A stretch of 64,000 nucleotides of DNA. Source: Gemmatimonadaceae bacterium. GTDB taxonomy: Bacteria; Gemmatimonadota; Gemmatimonadetes; Gemmatimonadales; Gemmatimonadaceae. The stretch is from positions 186,001 to 250,000 of the forward strand of contig JACVCD010000002.1 in NCBI GenBank assembly GCA_016742275.1. The letters are read 5' to 3'. Shown here piece after piece: positions 20,447 through 27,942 of this stretch. The notes beneath the pieces were generated by a model. The model worked only from the letters and a program-made list of their open reading frames with translations. It was not told the origin of the DNA and did not search any database. The position numbers and the translations under genes were made by a program. Positions within the stretch are counted from its first letter, which is position 1; every line of letters starts with the position of its first letter.

Positions 20447-21622
20447 ATGCGTCGGATACTGTGTTGTATTGCTGCCGCGATTGGCAGCACTCTGATACTC
20501 GGCATGCCGATCACGGCACGCGCGCAGCAGCAGGCCGGTATGCCGACGGCGCTGCAGCAACAGCTTGATACGTATCGTGCCCAGTCAGGATTTCCCGGCG
20601 CTGTGCTTGCTGTCGCTTTCGCCGATGGGCGGGTAGTCACCGTAGCCAGCGGTCAGTCCGATACCGCTCGACGCATGCCCATGCGCACCGATCACCGGTT
20701 GCTCATGGGAAGTGTCGGCAAGACCTATGTCGCGGCTGTCGCATTGCAGCTGTTACGCGAGGGGCGTCTCGACCTCGATGCACCAGTCGCCCGCTATGTA
20801 GGTGGGCAGGGGTGGTTTGACTCCGTTGCCAATGCGCCGGTCATTACGGTGCGGCAGATCATGACACACAGCTCGGGCGTCGTTCGCTACGAGTTCCGGC
20901 CGGATTTCACTGAGGCACTCACGCGCGACCCCAGTCGTGTGTGGGATCCGCGTGATCAGGTGCGCTATCTGCATGGTGCAACACCGCCATTCGCACCCGG
21001 CGCGGGTTGGGAATATTCCGACACCAACTACCTCATTCTCGCACTGGTGCTTGAGGCCATCACCAAGCGGCCGATCGATGAAGAAATCGCTCAGCGCTTG
21101 CTCGGTCCCTATCAGCTGCAGGCCACCATACCAAGCGACTCACGCAGACTTCCCGGTGTATCGCAGGGATACGCTGGTGCGCAGAACCCCTTCGGCGGTC
21201 GCGATGCGATGTTCGATGCCGATGGTTTGATGATTGTGAACCCGCAGTTCGAAGGCGCCGGCGGTGGCTATGCGGCCACTGCCGCCGATGCTGCCCGCTG
21301 GGGAGCGACCTTCTTTTCCGGGCGTGCCTTTGGTGAATCGCTTCTTCCTGTCGCCACAACCGGGCCGGCCGCGCGTCTCGGTCCTGGGACGCGTTATGGG
21401 CTCGGCATGATCCTTCGCGATTCCACTGTGGCCGGTCCCATGCGCGGCCACAGCGGATTCTTCCCCGGATATCTCACCGAGCTGCGTCACTATCCCGCGA
21501 GCGGTGTGACCGTCGCTCTGTTGGTCAACGCGAGCAACGTGCGCGCCACACCGCCGATGGCGCGATGGGTGGACGAATTGGTGGCTGGCTTGAATCAGCG
21601 GAACGACAGCGGCAACCAGTAA
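20447..21622 (+). CDS. Serine hydrolase of the beta-lactamase fold
   Basis: A 391-residue exported hydrolase. A signal peptide is followed by the catalytic motif LMGSVGKTYVAAV (SxxK), the tyrosine motif WEYSDTNYLIL (YxN), and the final HSG-type element RGHSGFFPG. The family includes class C beta-lactamases, DD-peptidases and esterases; without a closer relative the substrate is open. It follows the BIG2 lipoprotein by 25 bases and is probably cotranscribed. Its last 28 bases overlap the 3' end of the DUF5916 gene on the other strand. Confidence 0.92.
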   Translation: MRRILCCIAAAIGSTLILGMPITARAQQQAGMPTALQQQLDTYRAQSGFPGAVLAVAFADGRVVTVASGQSDTARRMPMRTDHRLLMGSVGKTYVAAVALQLLREGRLDLDAPVARYVGGQGWFDSVANAPVITVRQIMTHSSGVVRYEFRPDFTEALTRDPSRVWDPRDQVRYLHGATPPFAPGAGWEYSDTNYLILALVLEAITKRPIDEEIAQRLLGPYQLQATIPSDSRRLPGVSQGYAGAQNPFGGRDAMFDADGLMIVNPQFEGAGGGYAATAADAARWGATFFSGRAFGESLLPVATTGPAARLGPGTRYGLGMILRDSTVAGPMRGHSGFFPGYLTELRHYPASGVTVALLVNASNVRATPPMARWVDELVAGLNQRNDSGNQ

Positions 21623-24297
21623 CTCGCCTTGAGAGCAAGCACCTGGGTGCCATCGGCACTCAGGGCATCCCACAATGCACCGGGTTTGACGGTGAGACCA
21701 CGGGTGCGTTGCGCCGATCGATCCTGCTGCCATACCACAAACAGTGTGCAGCCCGGGCGCCATTCCCAGCGCATCACGGCGTTGCTGCGGAATGAACGCA
21801 GATTGAAGTCGTTGTTGCCGAGTGTGAATCGCGCGGCTCCATCCGTCACAACACGAGCACCTGTGCTGTCCGGTGCTGAAATCGTAGTGCCCTGTGTTCC
21901 ATAGGTACGCAGGTCCTTGTCCATCCGGGCGCCGAGCTCGCCGTACTCATGGTACCGGCCGCTCGCTGCAAAGGGCTCGGCGTACGTTTCGAATGTGAGG
22001 TTTGGTGTCAGGGCAAAATTCAATCGAAGACGCATGCTGTACTGCATCTGATCCACATGCGCGAAGATGTATCGCGAGCCAAATGTGGCCGCCGTGCCGC
22101 CCGACCGCGTGGACACATACTGACGGGCGTTCTCGTTGTGACTGACTGACGGAGTTATCGAGAGCTCGAGACGTGTTCCGGGTCGCAGTGTGACGGCACC
22201 ATCCACACCGAGGGAGTTGCCACCATCGCCGCTGGCGGATGTACCGGCAGATAGCGACCAGCTGGTGCGTGCACCACCACGACTCGAAATGCCGGCGTTG
22301 ATGGACTGGCCACCATAGGTGCGCATCATGGGGCCGCCGCGTGTCAGGTCATCAGAGATGGCAGGCAACTGAATGCCGGCTTCCACCCATGTGCGAATGA
22401 AATTCTTCAGCGTTTGATTGCTGTACAGTTCGAACCCACTGTAAGTGTTCACACCACCGAAGTTCCAGCCGGCATACTGTGATACACCCACATCCCAGTT
22501 GTGGAAGTACGCGCCGCGTTGGGTTTGACGGTACCGAAGATTGGAGGACTGACCAAGATCGTCTGTGCCGCCTAGACGTCCGGCGTCATTGATCTCGTAG
22601 CCGGGTGATTCGGCCGAGAAATCAATGTCCCACAGCCATGATCCACTCATCTTGCTGTGATTGATGCCGGCGAAATAGCCGTTCATCGACGTGAGTCCGG
22701 AATCTACGCGGACATACCCGGCGTCCGGCCGCTGAAAGAAACGGCGGCTCGATCGCTGCTGGGCCAGCATGGCCAGCGAATCACCCGCGATATGACTGAA
22801 ACCAACGAATGCGCTCACGTCGTACTTGCCACCTGCCCAGCGCAAGCGCGTATCGGCAAGACCGCTGTAGGCTCGCTGAGACAACACACGTTCCGCCAGG
22901 CTGCCGTCCTGCAGATTGCGCTCAACACCAGTGAACATGGCGTAGGCGGTGGAGCCGTCCTTGCCGAACTCCTGCTGAACCACGCCAATTCCGTACAGTG
23001 TGCGTGGTGCAACTTCGGCCGTGGTTTCCGTTTGCTGCGTGACATCGAACACACGCGCATTCTCTTGCGCGCTCAATGCGGTCAGACCAGCAAACGACAA
23101 CTTGGACGGGAGACGTCCCGAGACCTTGGCCGCGCCGAGAATGGTGGTGTTGTGCGGCACATCGGCGTAGCTGCCACCCGGATTGAGTGGTGGTGGCGCG
23201 CCAATGCGTCGCGAATAGAAGTTGCCGCGTGCATTGAGCAACTGTGTCCCTTCTGTGAAGAAGGGGCGCCGCTCCTGAAAGAATACTTCGAATGCTGACA
23301 GATTTACGACGGCCGGATCGGCTTCCACCTGACCAAAGTCCGGATTGATCGTGGCTTCGAGCGTGGCGTTGGGTCCGAGGCCGATCTTCACATCGGCACC
23401 CGCGCGCATCTCACTGCGCTGACGATAGTCGTACGGGTTCGCCGTATTCACTGTGCTCTTGGCGCGTGTATCACTTGCCACGTAGGGTAACACTTCGAGT
23501 CGCTGACGTGCTTTCACGCCGCGAATGCCCGTGAGCTGCCCCATACGCGACGACCAGCCTGTTTCATTGCGCTTGACCAGCATCCAATAATCCGACTCGT
23601 TCTTCTCGGGAACGAGTCGCACGATGTTCACACCCCAGATCTGCTCATCCGCCGCACTGAAACGCAGCTGCGAGAACGGAATGCGCATTTCTGCTGTCCA
23701 TCCCTGAGCGTCTACTGTAGTGCGTACTTCCCACACCGGATCGAAGGTGTAGTCACGCGAATTCTCGAAGTCGGAGCCGTGGTAGTAGTCCACGCGCACA
23801 CCACCCGAGGTCACGGAGAAAGTGTATGCCGTGCGACGATCCCCAAAAGTGTCGAATGACAAGACCAACTGCTCCGCGCTGCCTTCCTTGTCCCGTCGCG
23901 CCACCAATGGACGGATATGCTGCGGATTGCTGCTGTGCATTCGGGCGCCGATGTACAGCGCCTGGTTGTCGTAGACGAACGTTACTCGCGTTGAATCGCT
24001 GGCAGGTGAACCTTCACTTGGTTCTCGCTGTGTCAGTCCGGTGACATAGCGCGCGGTGGTCCATGCGGCTTCATCAAGTTTTCCATCGAGCTCAATGGGC
24101 ATTGATGTGCGCGAAGCTTCGGCTCGACCCGGCTCGGCGATGAACGCGACGGACGGACGTGGCAGCGCACCAGCAGGGCGGGCGGCGCTGGATGTGGTCG
24201 GTGAGATCGCCTGAGTGGACTGCGCAGCGGCAGACTGACACACGAGGGCTGTGAGCGCGGCAACGAGTGTTGCCGCGCGGCGAGAGAGGGGAGACAT
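21595..24297 (-). CDS. DUF5916 outer-membrane protein with N-terminal CBM9-like domain
   Basis: A 900-residue exported protein. After the signal peptide the CBM9-like domain begins with IELDGKLDEAAW and includes SEEQLVLSF-type and RTAYTFSVTSGGVRVDYYHG strands (about 60-260). From there to the end is the DUF5916 region, rich in alternating aromatic strands (about 290-900), that I read as an outer-membrane beta-barrel; the last residues SYWLPLSF end in Phe-Arg, close to the usual terminal aromatic. The start at 24297 gives a good signal (MSPLSRRAATLVAALTALVC); a longer frame would run into the upstream gene. It starts 13 bases after the HEAT gene and is the last gene of the BlaI operon. Confidence 0.9.
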   Translation of the reverse strand: MSPLSRRAATLVAALTALVCQSAAAQSTQAISPTTSSAARPAGALPRPSVAFIAEPGRAEASRTSMPIELDGKLDEAAWTTARYVTGLTQREPSEGSPASDSTRVTFVYDNQALYIGARMHSSNPQHIRPLVARRDKEGSAEQLVLSFDTFGDRRTAYTFSVTSGGVRVDYYHGSDFENSRDYTFDPVWEVRTTVDAQGWTAEMRIPFSQLRFSAADEQIWGVNIVRLVPEKNESDYWMLVKRNETGWSSRMGQLTGIRGVKARQRLEVLPYVASDTRAKSTVNTANPYDYRQRSEMRAGADVKIGLGPNATLEATINPDFGQVEADPAVVNLSAFEVFFQERRPFFTEGTQLLNARGNFYSRRIGAPPPLNPGGSYADVPHNTTILGAAKVSGRLPSKLSFAGLTALSAQENARVFDVTQQTETTAEVAPRTLYGIGVVQQEFGKDGSTAYAMFTGVERNLQDGSLAERVLSQRAYSGLADTRLRWAGGKYDVSAFVGFSHIAGDSLAMLAQQRSSRRFFQRPDAGYVRVDSGLTSMNGYFAGINHSKMSGSWLWDIDFSAESPGYEINDAGRLGGTDDLGQSSNLRYRQTQRGAYFHNWDVGVSQYAGWNFGGVNTYSGFELYSNQTLKNFIRTWVEAGIQLPAISDDLTRGGPMMRTYGGQSINAGISSRGGARTSWSLSAGTSASGDGGNSLGVDGAVTLRPGTRLELSITPSVSHNENARQYVSTRSGGTAATFGSRYIFAHVDQMQYSMRLRLNFALTPNLTFETYAEPFAASGRYHEYGELGARMDKDLRTYGTQGTTISAPDSTGARVVTDGAARFTLGNNDFNLRSFRSNAVMRWEWRPGCTLFVVWQQDRSAQRTRGLTVKPGALWDALSADGTQVLALKASYWLPLSFR

Positions 24298-24310
24298 GTA
24301 AGGGAGTGGT

Positions 24311-25399
24311 CTAGTCGCGCGATGCGTTCTCGCGCAGTTCGCCGAGTGCTTCTGCTGCCGCGCGGCGCACATCGGCGTCCGCGTCCTTGAGCAAGCGCAT
24401 CAGCGCGGGATTGGCTTTGATGGAACCGATTTCGCCCAGTGCTTCCGCCACCTGACGCCGCACATCGCGATCGTCCATGTCGGCAAGCGTGAGCAGTACA
24501 TCGAGTGTCGCGGGGTCGTGCAGATCAGCCAGCACGAGTGCTGAAATGCGCGCCAACTTACGATCGCTGGACTTCACCGCTGCAATCAACGCCGCCGGTG
24601 GATGCTCGAGATCGTCGAGTTCTCCAATGGCGCGGGCTGCTGCGTACTGCACTTCAGCGTCACGGTCGGCCAGTGCTTCACTCAGCGGGGTGAGTGAGCG
24701 AAGCAAGGCCAGCTCACCGAGAGCGTAGGCGGAGGCACGACGTACTCGCGCATCGCTATGGCGCAGCGAACGCTCAAGTGCAGGAGCCGACTCCGGATTG
24801 TCCTCTTCGGCCAACGCCCACGCGGCCATGGCGGCCTCTGCGGGACCGCGGCGCGCCAACATGTTTTCGAGCGGTCCACGTGCCACACGCTTCTCTCCAC
24901 TGCCAAGTGCAAAGGCGGCAGCTTCTCGTACCAACGGCGATTCGTGGTCCAACAGCGCCACGAGGCGTGATGTCTCGATGCGGCTACGGCCAAGCATTCG
25001 AGCGGCGGCGCGGCGCACACAGGAGTTCGGTGATGCCAGCCGTGCAATAAGCATCTGCTGCGTGCCCGCATGCGTAATGCGTCCGCTGAGCGAGTCCCTG
25101 GCCGATTGCAGCTCAGTGCGTGTATCAGCAAATCGTCCGATGCCACTGGAGCTGCTGCCCCACCAACCGTTGCCCATCTGATCGGCCACGATCTCGCATA
25201 CCAGCGGATCACCAGCTTCGAGTGTGGTCAGCAACTGTGCAACACGCGCCGAGTCCGGACCGGTGCGTTGCGATTGCTCTGCGCTCGTTTCTCCGCTAGT
25301 AGCCGACGACATACCCTTCGTCGGTTCGAGCGCCCGGACGCTCGTCCACACGGCCGCAAAAACGGCAGCCGTCACGAGACCAATGCGCGCGGGGCTCAT
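24311..25399 (-). CDS. Exported HEAT-repeat protein
   Basis: A 362-residue protein. A single N-terminal hydrophobic segment (GLVTAAVFAAVWTSV) acts as signal or anchor, followed by a Ser/Gly-rich linker. From about residue 115 to the end, HEAT/PBS-lyase type repeats of about 31 residues recur: VRRAAARMLGRSR, VREAAAFALGSG, VRRASAYALGELA, VQYAAARAIGELD, VRRQVAEALGEIG, VRRAAAEALGELR. Such arrays form curved protein-binding surfaces. Its start overlaps the M56 gene stop as TGATG, so it is translationally coupled to it. By topology the array is periplasmic, next to the HEAT part of the M56 protein. Confidence 0.9.
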   Translation of the reverse strand: MSPARIGLVTAAVFAAVWTSVRALEPTKGMSSATSGETSAEQSQRTGPDSARVAQLLTTLEAGDPLVCEIVADQMGNGWWGSSSSGIGRFADTRTELQSARDSLSGRITHAGTQQMLIARLASPNSCVRRAAARMLGRSRIETSRLVALLDHESPLVREAAAFALGSGEKRVARGPLENMLARRGPAEAAMAAWALAEEDNPESAPALERSLRHSDARVRRASAYALGELALLRSLTPLSEALADRDAEVQYAAARAIGELDDLEHPPAALIAAVKSSDRKLARISALVLADLHDPATLDVLLTLADMDDRDVRRQVAEALGEIGSIKANPALMRLLKDADADVRRAAAEALGELRENASRD

Positions 25400-27492
25400 C
25401 AGCGATTCCCCAGTGCCTCAGCGGCACGACGACGCACCACCGGGTCAGTGGATGTCAGCGCACCGCGCAGCGCTGTGCGTGCTTCTGTGCTTCGCAGTTC
25501 GGCCAGTGTTTCCACGGCCTGTTCGCGCACATGCCCGTCGCTATCCTCGAGCATTTTCTGAATGAGACTCACGTCTGCGAGCGATGGCTGTTCTTTCACA
25601 TACTCGAGAGCCGCGCGCCGCACGTCGGCCACCCCATCGGTCAAGAGTGCAGTCACCTCGCGTGCTGGCAACACGGCCTTGATTTCGCACAGCGACTCGA
25701 GCGCAGCCGTGCGCACTTCCGGAGACGTGTCGCCGAGCAGATTCTGAAGCGCCGATGCTGCGGAACGATCACCAATCTCCCCAAGCAATTCGGCCGCCTT
25801 GGCTCGAACGGCTGGACGACTGTCCTGTATGAACGGCGTGATCTGATTCGCGTCGAGTTCGTCGGCGAATTCGCTGAGCGCCTCAATGGCCTGGTGCCGT
25901 ACTTCTGGCACGGCATCACGCAGCGCACGTGTCAGTGCAGGTACGGCACGCGCATCGCCGATGTTACCGAGCGCTTCGCAAACAGCCTGGCGCACTTCCT
26001 TGTTGGCATCGCCAATAATCGCCATCAGTGCTGGAACGGCCGTCTTGCTTTCGAGATTGCCGAGCGCGTTGGCTGCCGCGCGACGTACACTGGCGTCAGA
26101 GTCTCTGAGGCGATCGATCAACGCCGCGATGACGGCCGGATCTTCGACAAGAGATTGCTTGCCCTGGTGGTCGGCAGGTTTGCGATTCTCCTGCAGGGCA
26201 AGGTTCACCAGTGCTTTCGCCTTTGCCGCCTCGAGACGTTCACGTGAAGTATCGGTGGCGCCACTCTGCGGTGTCGGCAGGTTCTCGCCATCCGTATCGA
26301 CGGGCTGCTGGAGTCGATTCTCCGATACCGGATTGCCGAGCAGCGGTGTCTCTGCGGATGATTGAATTAGCGCATTACTGGTGCGTACGGCCGGTGCCGC
26401 CGCCACCACTGTTGCCAGCATCACGGTGCCCGCGCCAATGGTCAGTGCACGGGAGAGCGGGGAACCGGTACGCTTGCCTTCGATAAGTCGCGCGATGCGT
26501 GTCACCAGTAGCGAGCGCTGTTCGGCCATACCGGCAACCGGCACACCAAGTGGCGAAGCTTCGATCCACTCGGCTACGCGCGCCAGGCAATGCGCGAGTG
26601 GAAGTCCGTTGCCAGTGCGCTCGGCAGCCCAGTCATCGCACAGGAACTCGGCGTTGCGCTGGATTTCGCGACGTGCCAGACGATTGAGCGGCTGGAAGAA
26701 AAACACACGCTCCATGATCGACGCCATGTCGAGCCACACGGGATCGCGGCGCGCGAGGTGTGCCAACTCATGCGCGAGCAATCCGCGCTGTTCGTCCGTG
26801 GTGAGTTCTGTAAGAGCGGCTTCTGGCACACAGATCTCACGAAGACCGAGGGCCACCGGACTCGAGATGGTATTCACCGATGTCAGAGCCACATGCGAGC
26901 GGAAGCCCACTGTGCGGCACAATGCATCGAGCATTGCCGGCAGTGCACCATCGGTGATGTGCTGACGGTTGGCGAGTCGCCCAACCAGCATGAGACGACG
27001 CGCTGTGTACGTGAGTGCCAGCATGAGGGCGATGAATGCCCAGCCGATCACAAGAAAGCGCTCGATCATCACGCGCGAAATGAATGGTGCAGATACATCC
27101 TCTGCATTCGCAGCAACAGAAGGCGCTACCAGATCAGACGAGGGCGTGATCGCGGATCCCGGCGTCGCGGGGCCGTCCGACACACTGGTGGCGTGATCAT
27201 CAATTGCTGCTGCGGGGTGGCCGATATCGCTATTGACTGCTTCAATCGATGGATCGCTCACCACGCTGCTCACGGATTGCAGCGCAAAGGAGCCCGACGG
27301 GCGCACATCCAAGGCGAGTTGCACGGACGATGTCACCAGCCCGCCAATCAACGCGACCTTCCAGATGAAGTCGACTGTGTGAATGGACAGCCGTGTGAAT
27401 CGGGAAACCAGCCACGCCGCGCTGAGCAGCACGGTGCTGTGAATGGCGTACGTCAGCAACCAGGCAAGCGCCATCTTGGTGATCGTTTCCAT
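25399..27492 (-). CDS. BlaR1-like M56 metalloprotease with C-terminal HEAT-repeat array
   Basis: A 697-residue membrane protein. Two helices (about 8-30 and 40-62), an outside loop of about 75 residues, a third helix (141-165), then the cytoplasmic zinc protease with HELAH (H241, E242, H245) and the downstream glutamate in RNAEFLCDDWA (E283 region), and a fourth helix (about 350-368). This is the BlaR1/MecR1 layout. After helix four BlaR1 has a penicillin-binding sensor domain; here about residues 430-697 are eight or so HEAT repeats (VRRAAANALGNLE, VRQAVCEALGNIG, VRTAALESLCEIK). Known family members cleave the BlaI-type repressor after sensing. The start overlaps the blaI-like stop as TAATG. 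Confidence 0.93.
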   Translation of the reverse strand: METITKMALAWLLTYAIHSTVLLSAAWLVSRFTRLSIHTVDFIWKVALIGGLVTSSVQLALDVRPSGSFALQSVSSVVSDPSIEAVNSDIGHPAAAIDDHATSVSDGPATPGSAITPSSDLVAPSVAANAEDVSAPFISRVMIERFLVIGWAFIALMLALTYTARRLMLVGRLANRQHITDGALPAMLDALCRTVGFRSHVALTSVNTISSPVALGLREICVPEAALTELTTDEQRGLLAHELAHLARRDPVWLDMASIMERVFFFQPLNRLARREIQRNAEFLCDDWAAERTGNGLPLAHCLARVAEWIEASPLGVPVAGMAEQRSLLVTRIARLIEGKRTGSPLSRALTIGAGTVMLATVVAAAPAVRTSNALIQSSAETPLLGNPVSENRLQQPVDTDGENLPTPQSGATDTSRERLEAAKAKALVNLALQENRKPADHQGKQSLVEDPAVIAALIDRLRDSDASVRRAAANALGNLESKTAVPALMAIIGDANKEVRQAVCEALGNIGDARAVPALTRALRDAVPEVRHQAIEALSEFADELDANQITPFIQDSRPAVRAKAAELLGEIGDRSAASALQNLLGDTSPEVRTAALESLCEIKAVLPAREVTALLTDGVADVRRAALEYVKEQPSLADVSLIQKMLEDSDGHVREQAVETLAELRSTEARTALRGALTSTDPVVRRRAAEALGNR

Positions 27493-27884
27493 TACTTGGG
27501 TTCCTCAGTGGACTTGGACGCCTTGTCGAGCATGGCGCGAATGCGCTGGCGATCACCAGGACTCATGTCCTGTGCGCTCAGCAGATGACTCACGAGGGCG
27601 GGCACGTCGCCTTCAAAGAGGCGGGCCGTCAATTCACTCACCATGGAGTGGCGCGCGGCGTCTTCGGAGACGACGGCGCGATACACGAATTGCCGCGCAC
27701 TGGTGCGATGCGCGACGGCGCCCCGCTTCTCGAGGCGCGACAGCATGGTCGCCAGGGTGGTCTGGGCGAGGCCCCGCTCATCATGCAGGGCCTCCCAAAT
27801 CTCGACCACGGTGGCTTCCCCGCGTTCCCAAAGAACGCGGAGAATGGAAAGTTGGAGGGCAGTAAAGCTGTGCTGCTCGGACAT
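27492..27884 (-). CDS. BlaI/MecI/CopY family repressor
   Basis: A 130-residue winged-helix repressor. The DNA-binding half reads LTALQLSILRVLWERG-like at the start (FTALQLSILRVLWERGEA) and continues with GLAQTTLATMLSRLEKRG; the C-terminal half is the dimerisation and cleavage region (ARLFEGDVPALVSHLLS). BlaI-type repressors bind TACAnnTGTA dyads and are inactivated by cleavage through the partner M56 protease, which is the next gene. Two such dyads lie 17-46 bases before its start. Confidence 0.95.
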   Translation of the reverse strand: MSEQHSFTALQLSILRVLWERGEATVVEIWEALHDERGLAQTTLATMLSRLEKRGAVAHRTSARQFVYRAVVSEDAARHSMVSELTARLFEGDVPALVSHLLSAQDMSPGDRQRIRAMLDKASKSTEEPK

Positions 27885-27900
27885 GGAAGGCTCCAGTTGG

Positions 27901-27927
27901 AACTACACGTGTAGTTTTACATGTGTA
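27901..27927. promoter_or_regulatory. Two tandem BlaI-type operators (TACAnnTGTA)
   Basis: A perfect 16-bp palindrome (aactacacgtgtagtt, 27901-27916) contains TACACGTGTA. One base further a second core, TACATGTGTA, occupies 27918-27927. Both fit the TACAnnTGTA core of known BlaI/MecI sites. They overlap the -10, the start point region and part of the spacer of the promoter below, as expected for repression. Confidence 0.85.
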
Positions 27928-27942
27928 GTTGAAAACTGTCAA
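27914..27942 (-). promoter_or_regulatory. Sigma-70 type promoter of the BlaI operon
   Basis: On the minus strand TTGACA (27937-27942, perfect consensus -35) is separated by 17 bases from TAAAAC (27914-27919, -10). It lies 30 bases upstream of the repressor gene, and both operators overlap it. Confidence 0.75.

Follow-up and report, generated by a model that had tools for sequence, protein, structure and literature searches.

The operon described here lies in a 64,000-nucleotide stretch (64 kb, referred to as the window) of the 4.57-Mb genome of a Gemmatimonadaceae bacterium (assembly GCA_016742275.1, contig JACVCD010000002.1, positions 186,001 to 250,000 of the forward strand); coordinates without a locus label refer to this window. 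Four genes are read in succession from the minus strand: a BlaI/MecI-type repressor of 130 residues (27492..27884; PF03965, gapless MecI match), an M56 membrane protease of 697 residues with a C-terminal HEAT array (25399..27492; PF05569, HEAT_2), an exported HEAT solenoid of 362 residues (24311..25399; HEAT_2), and a DUF5916 protein of 900 residues (21595..24297; PF19313, AlphaFold2 model, fold matches). The four genes and their coordinates had been proposed from the DNA letters in an earlier annotation (the original prediction) and agreed with the sequence, as did the junctions (TAATG, TGATG, and then a 13-bp gap); the DUF5916 start was read as the ATG at 24297, 13 bases past the stop codon of the HEAT-protein gene. 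The named relatives of the M56 protein were Gemmatimonadaceae and Gemmatimonadales records. A search against Rfam gave no match.

The repressor was assigned with PF03965 (E 4.5e-30, 104.8 bits against a cut-off of 22.6, residues 8-120 of 130) and aligned without gaps over its full length to MecI (1okr, E 6.8e-8). The CopY/TcrY model TIGR02698 remained below its cut-off (E 3.9e-18, 66 bits against 121.95), and the protein contains no cysteine in its 130 residues, so that the Cys-X-Cys metal site of CopY/TcrY is absent.

Upstream of the repressor gene, a -35 box (TTGACA, 27937..27942, minus strand, by sequence reading) is followed after a 17-bp spacer by a weak -10 box (TAAAAC, 27919-27914, minus strand). 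This promoter, which had no place in the original prediction, was not called by a consensus promoter scanner, because the -10 box is without its final T. Two BlaI-type operators on the minus strand cover the -10 box and the start region: TACACATGTA (27918..27927), touching the -10 box, and TACACGTGTA (27904..27913), placed 14 bp centre to centre from the first. Both are perfect dyads of the TACANNTGTA form, the known operator of BlaI, MecI, and CopY, the CopY core having been refined to KACANNYGTM (PMC7253601). The motif occurred twice in the window, against 0.06 occurrences expected by chance, and the tandem pair was found a single time in the genome, at the BlaI promoter. Tandem pairs were relied upon because the 10-base core alone is a poor predictor of binding (PMC7253601). 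A degenerate pattern of the pair was scanned in 298 Gemmatimonadota genomes, with the reversed pattern as a control; it was present in 24/298 genomes, nearly always at the orthologous BlaI promoter (reversed control: 3 genomes), and was nearly absent from genomes without a window-type BlaI. Related BlaI promoters keep the pair at equal spacing, with TTGACA ahead of the operators at most related loci. The two perfect dyads at the repressor's own promoter, kept in relatives, support the proposal of a BlaI-type autoregulated operon to which the repressor would bind. Further matches were rejected: two single TACAYRTGTA sites elsewhere in the same genome (one inside a reading frame, the other without a -35 box; 12 in the reversed control) were attributed to chance, a GC-rich pattern match in genome G125 did not rise above the reversed control, and one in G242 stood behind an M56 gene near a contig end.

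The M56 protein scored 69.7 bits with PF05569 (cut-off 31) and matched HEAT_2 with E 6.6e-48. Four hydrophobic helices (about 7-30, 35-61, 146-170, and 351-369) were recognised, with the HELAH motif at 241-245 between helices 3 and 4. The zinc motifs follow the spacing of BlaR1, from which the offsets were taken (PMC9834060): H241ELAH245, D250 (+9), and E282FLCD286 (+41). The HEAT repeats (about 455-697) are located past membrane helix 4, the place of the penicillin sensor in BlaR1; this location supports the suggestion that a HEAT array occupies the position of the beta-lactam sensor. Past residue 440 only repeat families of the HEAT/Arm kind were matched, and no penicillin-binding (transpeptidase-like) sensor was found there; the blaR1_generic model covered the protease positions only (35.5 bits against 400). 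Because the repeats come after the last membrane helix and BlaR1 has an N-out, C-out topology (PMC9834060), the array is predicted to face the periplasm.

The exported HEAT protein (HEAT_2, E 1.9e-36; signal judged by eye) carries an N-terminal cap that is covered by no Pfam model and in which Cys68, Cys127, and parts of a GNxW loop are invariant. Its structure model is a solenoid with a floppy loop between two cysteine-bearing helices. The secreted HEAT proteins of the window lineage (type 1) and of a second lineage (type 2, below) share one cap, consisting of Cys, then G-x-W, then Cys, which points to a new secreted protein family of Cys/GxW-capped HEAT solenoids.

The product of the fourth gene was assigned with PF19313 (E 5.1e-58, 197.6 bits against a cut-off of 22.6). 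Its AlphaFold2 model (pLDDT 77.8; strands from 249 to 892) contains a CBM9-like domain (Z 18.4 to 7nwn) and a barrel that matched FimD, TonB-dependent receptors, and MtrB at Z 12-14, so the protein is modelled as a signal peptide (by eye), a CBM9-like domain, and an outer-membrane beta-barrel. A sequence search of the PDB gave only a weak match to a CBM9 xylanase module (E 0.026); a DUF5916 relative also scores for CBM9_1. In 18 genomes, 147 DUF5916 matches were counted, corresponding to about 8 paralogues each. That the operon delivers a periplasmic repeat protein together with an outer-membrane protein, as had been claimed, was thereby supported.

Conservation of the gene order was followed with BlaI searches of the 298 genomes. 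The orthologues of the window BlaI form a group of about 65, after which the score drops sharply. BlaI, M56-HEAT, and HEAT genes are contiguous in 19 other Gemmatimonadota genomes of two families; DUF5916 as the fourth gene of this lineage was found only in the window and in G019, a genome of the same genus, and G044 and G110 have a DUF5916 gene on the opposite strand immediately past the three-gene unit. G019 holds a second operon of a different lineage with the order BlaI, M56-HEAT, HEAT, DUF5916 (L233), and the same order recurs in G021, G023, and G244. In a third arrangement (G213, G158, G285), the M56 protein that follows BlaI carries 'SDGD' repeats, and either one or two secreted proteins with this repeat precede DUF5916; at four further loci (L234, L280, L292, L294), BlaI, M56-SDGD, and DUF5916 are present and a separate secreted array is missing. 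Gene order is thus conserved beyond close relatives both in the three-gene core and, taken as a class, in the four-gene layout; strict orthologues of the whole four-gene operon are confined to the window and a single further genome of its genus. At one SDGD locus (L229 2210-8674, G213:C19), where BlaI, M56, and a secreted protein precede DUF5916, the repeats read SxxSDGDKxxVL; no Pfam model covers them, and they possibly represent an undescribed repeat family.

From a second BlaI group 40 loci were taken, of which 6 ended too early on their contigs. They were located with a composite probe (the start of the L233 BlaI, the rest consensus-like) that corresponds to no real protein and served for locus finding only. 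DUF5916 was the next gene on the same strand at 12 of the 34 usable loci, against 0.20 expected, with a probe that favours this group, being derived from the BlaI of a DUF5916 operon. In the 18 genomes, in which all M56 genes were searched for, DUF5916 stood close behind 5 of the 44 over the cut-off (the window's own included), against 0.26 expected; both expected counts assume independent loci and are to that extent optimistic. A single clade of HEAT-bearing M56 proteases was rejected: forcing them together costs 423 log-likelihood units in a quick tree (approximately unbiased test, p-AU 1.9e-7). At least 9 changes in the DUF5916 link are needed on the tree, and the gene order with DUF5916 recurs on separate M56 lineages, twice with HEAT and once with the SDGD repeat. 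Secreted repeat proteins, where present, match the M56 protein in repeat type (HEAT/HEAT, SDGD/SDGD), and in type 2 a WPWPxPRPxP tail is mostly common to both arrays. Most simply, M56 receptors would have gained a repeat solenoid sensor more than once, each time with a matching secreted partner.

The link between repressor and DUF5916 was also seen away from the operons. The type-2 operator, likewise preceded by TTGACA, is a pair of TGnTGAnnnnTCAnCA dyads at a distance of 17 bp. Exact tandem operators of this type were found at 19 places in the 298 genomes (reversed control: none), 15 of them at BlaI promoters; each of the remaining four (G021, G023, G212, G246) stands directly ahead of a DUF5916 gene. 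These were counted as three independent cases, because G021 and G023 share a genus. The DUF5916 copy in G023 is a decayed remnant (L318 1501-2393, G023:C5) that keeps pieces of both ends behind an intact operator and promoter. For the window-type operator, a single site away from BlaI was judged credible, a triple dyad ahead of a DUF5916 gene in G044 (G044:C3, the only one among the DUF5916-bearing loci checked to have window-type operators); a single-mismatch site at G044:C7 looks like chance. A random site would fall within 200 bp upstream of a DUF5916 start with a chance of about 0.0004. Neither G044 nor G246 has a DUF5916 gene inside its BlaI operon, so that in these two genomes the trans gene apparently takes the place of a cis copy. 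The case for DUF5916 as a true target rather than an accidental neighbour rests most firmly on these trans operators, and the sequence evidence for this regulatory link is strong. A one-mismatch type-2 operator was also observed ahead of a 239-residue protein that has a single hydrophobic stretch close to its N-terminus (L319 1501-2261, G019:C1), a possible extra target.

The closest known systems are BlaI-BlaR1 and MecI-MecR1 of Staphylococcus and Bacillus (PMC9834060, PMC3305447), with which the operon shares the PF03965 repressor, the M56 gluzincin motif spacing, TACA/TGTA operators, a protease placed between the third and fourth of four membrane helices, and adjacent repressor and protease genes. 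Those systems have a penicillin-binding sensor where the M56 protein of the window has a HEAT array, and they target a beta-lactamase or penicillin-binding protein, whereas the proposed target here is a DUF5916 barrel and a secreted solenoid; the Tyr261 equivalent and the cleavage-site residues also differ. The copper repressors CopY/CopR (PMC7253601) belong to the same repressor superfamily and have the operator consensus given above, but the window BlaI lacks the CxC metal site and comes with an M56 protease, and no copper genes were seen. In the same genome, a further BlaI gene stands beside an M56 gene with a periplasmic add-on (G000:C9:1-3402, L002/L247), as in the window, with two C-terminal TonB-like domains (by eye) in place of the HEAT array; this gene lies at a contig end, so that downstream partners are out of view. 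With respect to DUF5916/CBM9-type outer-membrane proteins (PF19313, PF06452), the fourth gene belongs to PF19313 and is here placed under putative BlaI/M56 control. DUF5916 was absent from the literature searched, with neither a function nor a regulator described, and the combination of 'BlaR1' with 'HEAT repeat' was not mentioned there; subscription papers were mostly outside this search. The part families are known; the combination, the target, and the secreted partner family look undescribed.

The operon is best read as a switch in which BlaI and an M56 protease with a solenoid sensor control DUF5916, to which we assign a probability of about 0.7; this figure covers the circuit and not the ligand. 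BlaI dimers on the two operators over the -10 box and start region would repress the whole operon and, in some relatives that carry the trans operators, also a DUF5916 gene elsewhere. The M56 protein, with the helices and motifs of the BlaR1 layout, would expose its HEAT array to the periplasm. By analogy with BlaR1 (PMC9834060), engagement of the array would cause the cytoplasmic zinc site to cut BlaI, and the operon would be switched on. The secreted array might carry or buffer the ligand and, once it is saturated, the M56 array would become engaged, yielding more barrel and more buffer.

Several points weigh against this circuit. The Tyr261 equivalent (+60), called near strictly conserved in BlaR1, is His in the window protein and mostly Lys, Arg, Thr, or Ser in its M56 clade, so control of the protease may differ. 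Opposite the BlaI cleavage pair Asn101-Phe102, the window repressor has His-Leu in the alignment, most of the clade having HLL or QLL at this position. Most type-1 genomes have no DUF5916 following in cis and no tandem operator in trans, and DUF5916 is not an obligatory partner there. The optimistic expected counts and the probe choice described above belong on the same side. HEAT arrays, furthermore, are general scaffolds and give no hint of a ligand.

As to what is sensed, we tentatively propose, at somewhat less than even odds, that both HEAT arrays bind one periplasmic thing, either a part of the DUF5916 barrel or what the barrel brings in. A slightly less probable alternative is substrate-induced uptake, in which the arrays answer a nutrient (for example, a glycan handled by the CBM9-like domain) imported by DUF5916, with the M56 protein inducing the importer. 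The predicted CBM9 fold (Z 18.4) and the receptor-size outer-membrane barrel of the model speak for it, and the roughly eight DUF5916 paralogues per genome would suit many substrates. In the operon, however, no gene for a carbohydrate-degrading enzyme, a SusD-like protein, or a transporter was recognised, nor was a conserved neighbour of this kind seen at related loci, where most neighbours are unannotated. HEAT solenoids, moreover, usually bind proteins rather than sugars.

Less probable again is direct contact between the two arrays, as the original prediction had suggested, with the secreted array as the ligand of the M56 array and the operon measuring its own secreted product or the release of that product from a client. 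The matching of membrane-bound and secreted repeat types in separate lineages and the common type-2 tail speak for this arrangement, but the four SDGD loci keep BlaI, M56, and DUF5916 without any separate secreted array, and shared tails would suit a shared third partner equally well.

A classical sensor of cell-wall damage, in which the HEAT-bearing switch still answers beta-lactams or peptidoglycan fragments, is improbable. The BlaI/MecI ancestry recalls such a role, and peptidoglycan dipeptides act on the BlaI of Bacillus licheniformis (PMC3305447). The operon also adjoins a PF00144 serine hydrolase gene of the beta-lactamase fold (20447-21622, plus strand), which would be a bystander or helper. 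This neighbour qualifies the earlier statement that the target genes of a classical BlaI system are absent, which holds within the operon. The gene is convergent with DUF5916, overlapping its 3' end by 28 bp, and its orientation opposite to the operon means that the operon operator cannot serve it; it was rejected as a BlaI target, having no operator of its own and no counterpart among the genes after BlaI at 60 related loci. Its NCBIfam scores are far under every class C beta-lactamase cut-off, and all credible trans operators stand at DUF5916 genes, none at a beta-lactamase or penicillin-binding protein. A more classical layout does occur elsewhere in the family, with successive BlaI, M56, and PF00144 (beta-lactamase family) genes (L237 1563-5040, G086:C18).

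That DUF5916 was merely inserted by chance behind a conserved BlaI-M56-HEAT unit in this genus, as its occurrence as fourth gene of the window lineage otherwise only in G019 might suggest, is very improbable and largely contradicted by the cis recurrence on other lineages and by unlinked DUF5916 genes carrying operators of two specificities.

BlaI and M56 genes are usually annotated as antibiotic-resistance regulators; here they appear to control an outer-membrane barrel family, and reading them as beta-lactam resistance in environmental genomes would mislead for these loci. DUF5916 would gain a putative regulator, and the trans operators make the regulon directly testable. It is conceivable, although we regard it as the less likely outcome, that BlaI/M56-solenoid systems form a general class of outer-membrane-barrel sensors in Gemmatimonadota, in which a membrane-bound solenoid and its secreted twin would compete for a barrel-linked client and proteolysis would tune the barrel supply. 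If so, a sigmaE-like job would be done by penicillinase-repressor parts with interchangeable solenoid sensors.

Two further occurrences of the parts were recorded. A contig of a Myxococcaceae metagenome-assembled genome (L153 3232-7732) encodes BlaI, M56-HEAT, and a Cys/W-capped HEAT protein without TACA operators, by either transfer or wrong binning. At two loci of one genus (L223 10835-12964, L224 9735-11888), an exported HEAT protein with a C-terminal cyclophilin-type prolyl isomerase domain (recognised by Pfam in the L223 copy) is encoded divergently from the BlaI operon, with a small gene between the two at L224; just past the cyclophilin-HEAT gene come a Ser/Thr-kinase-like gene and DUF5916.

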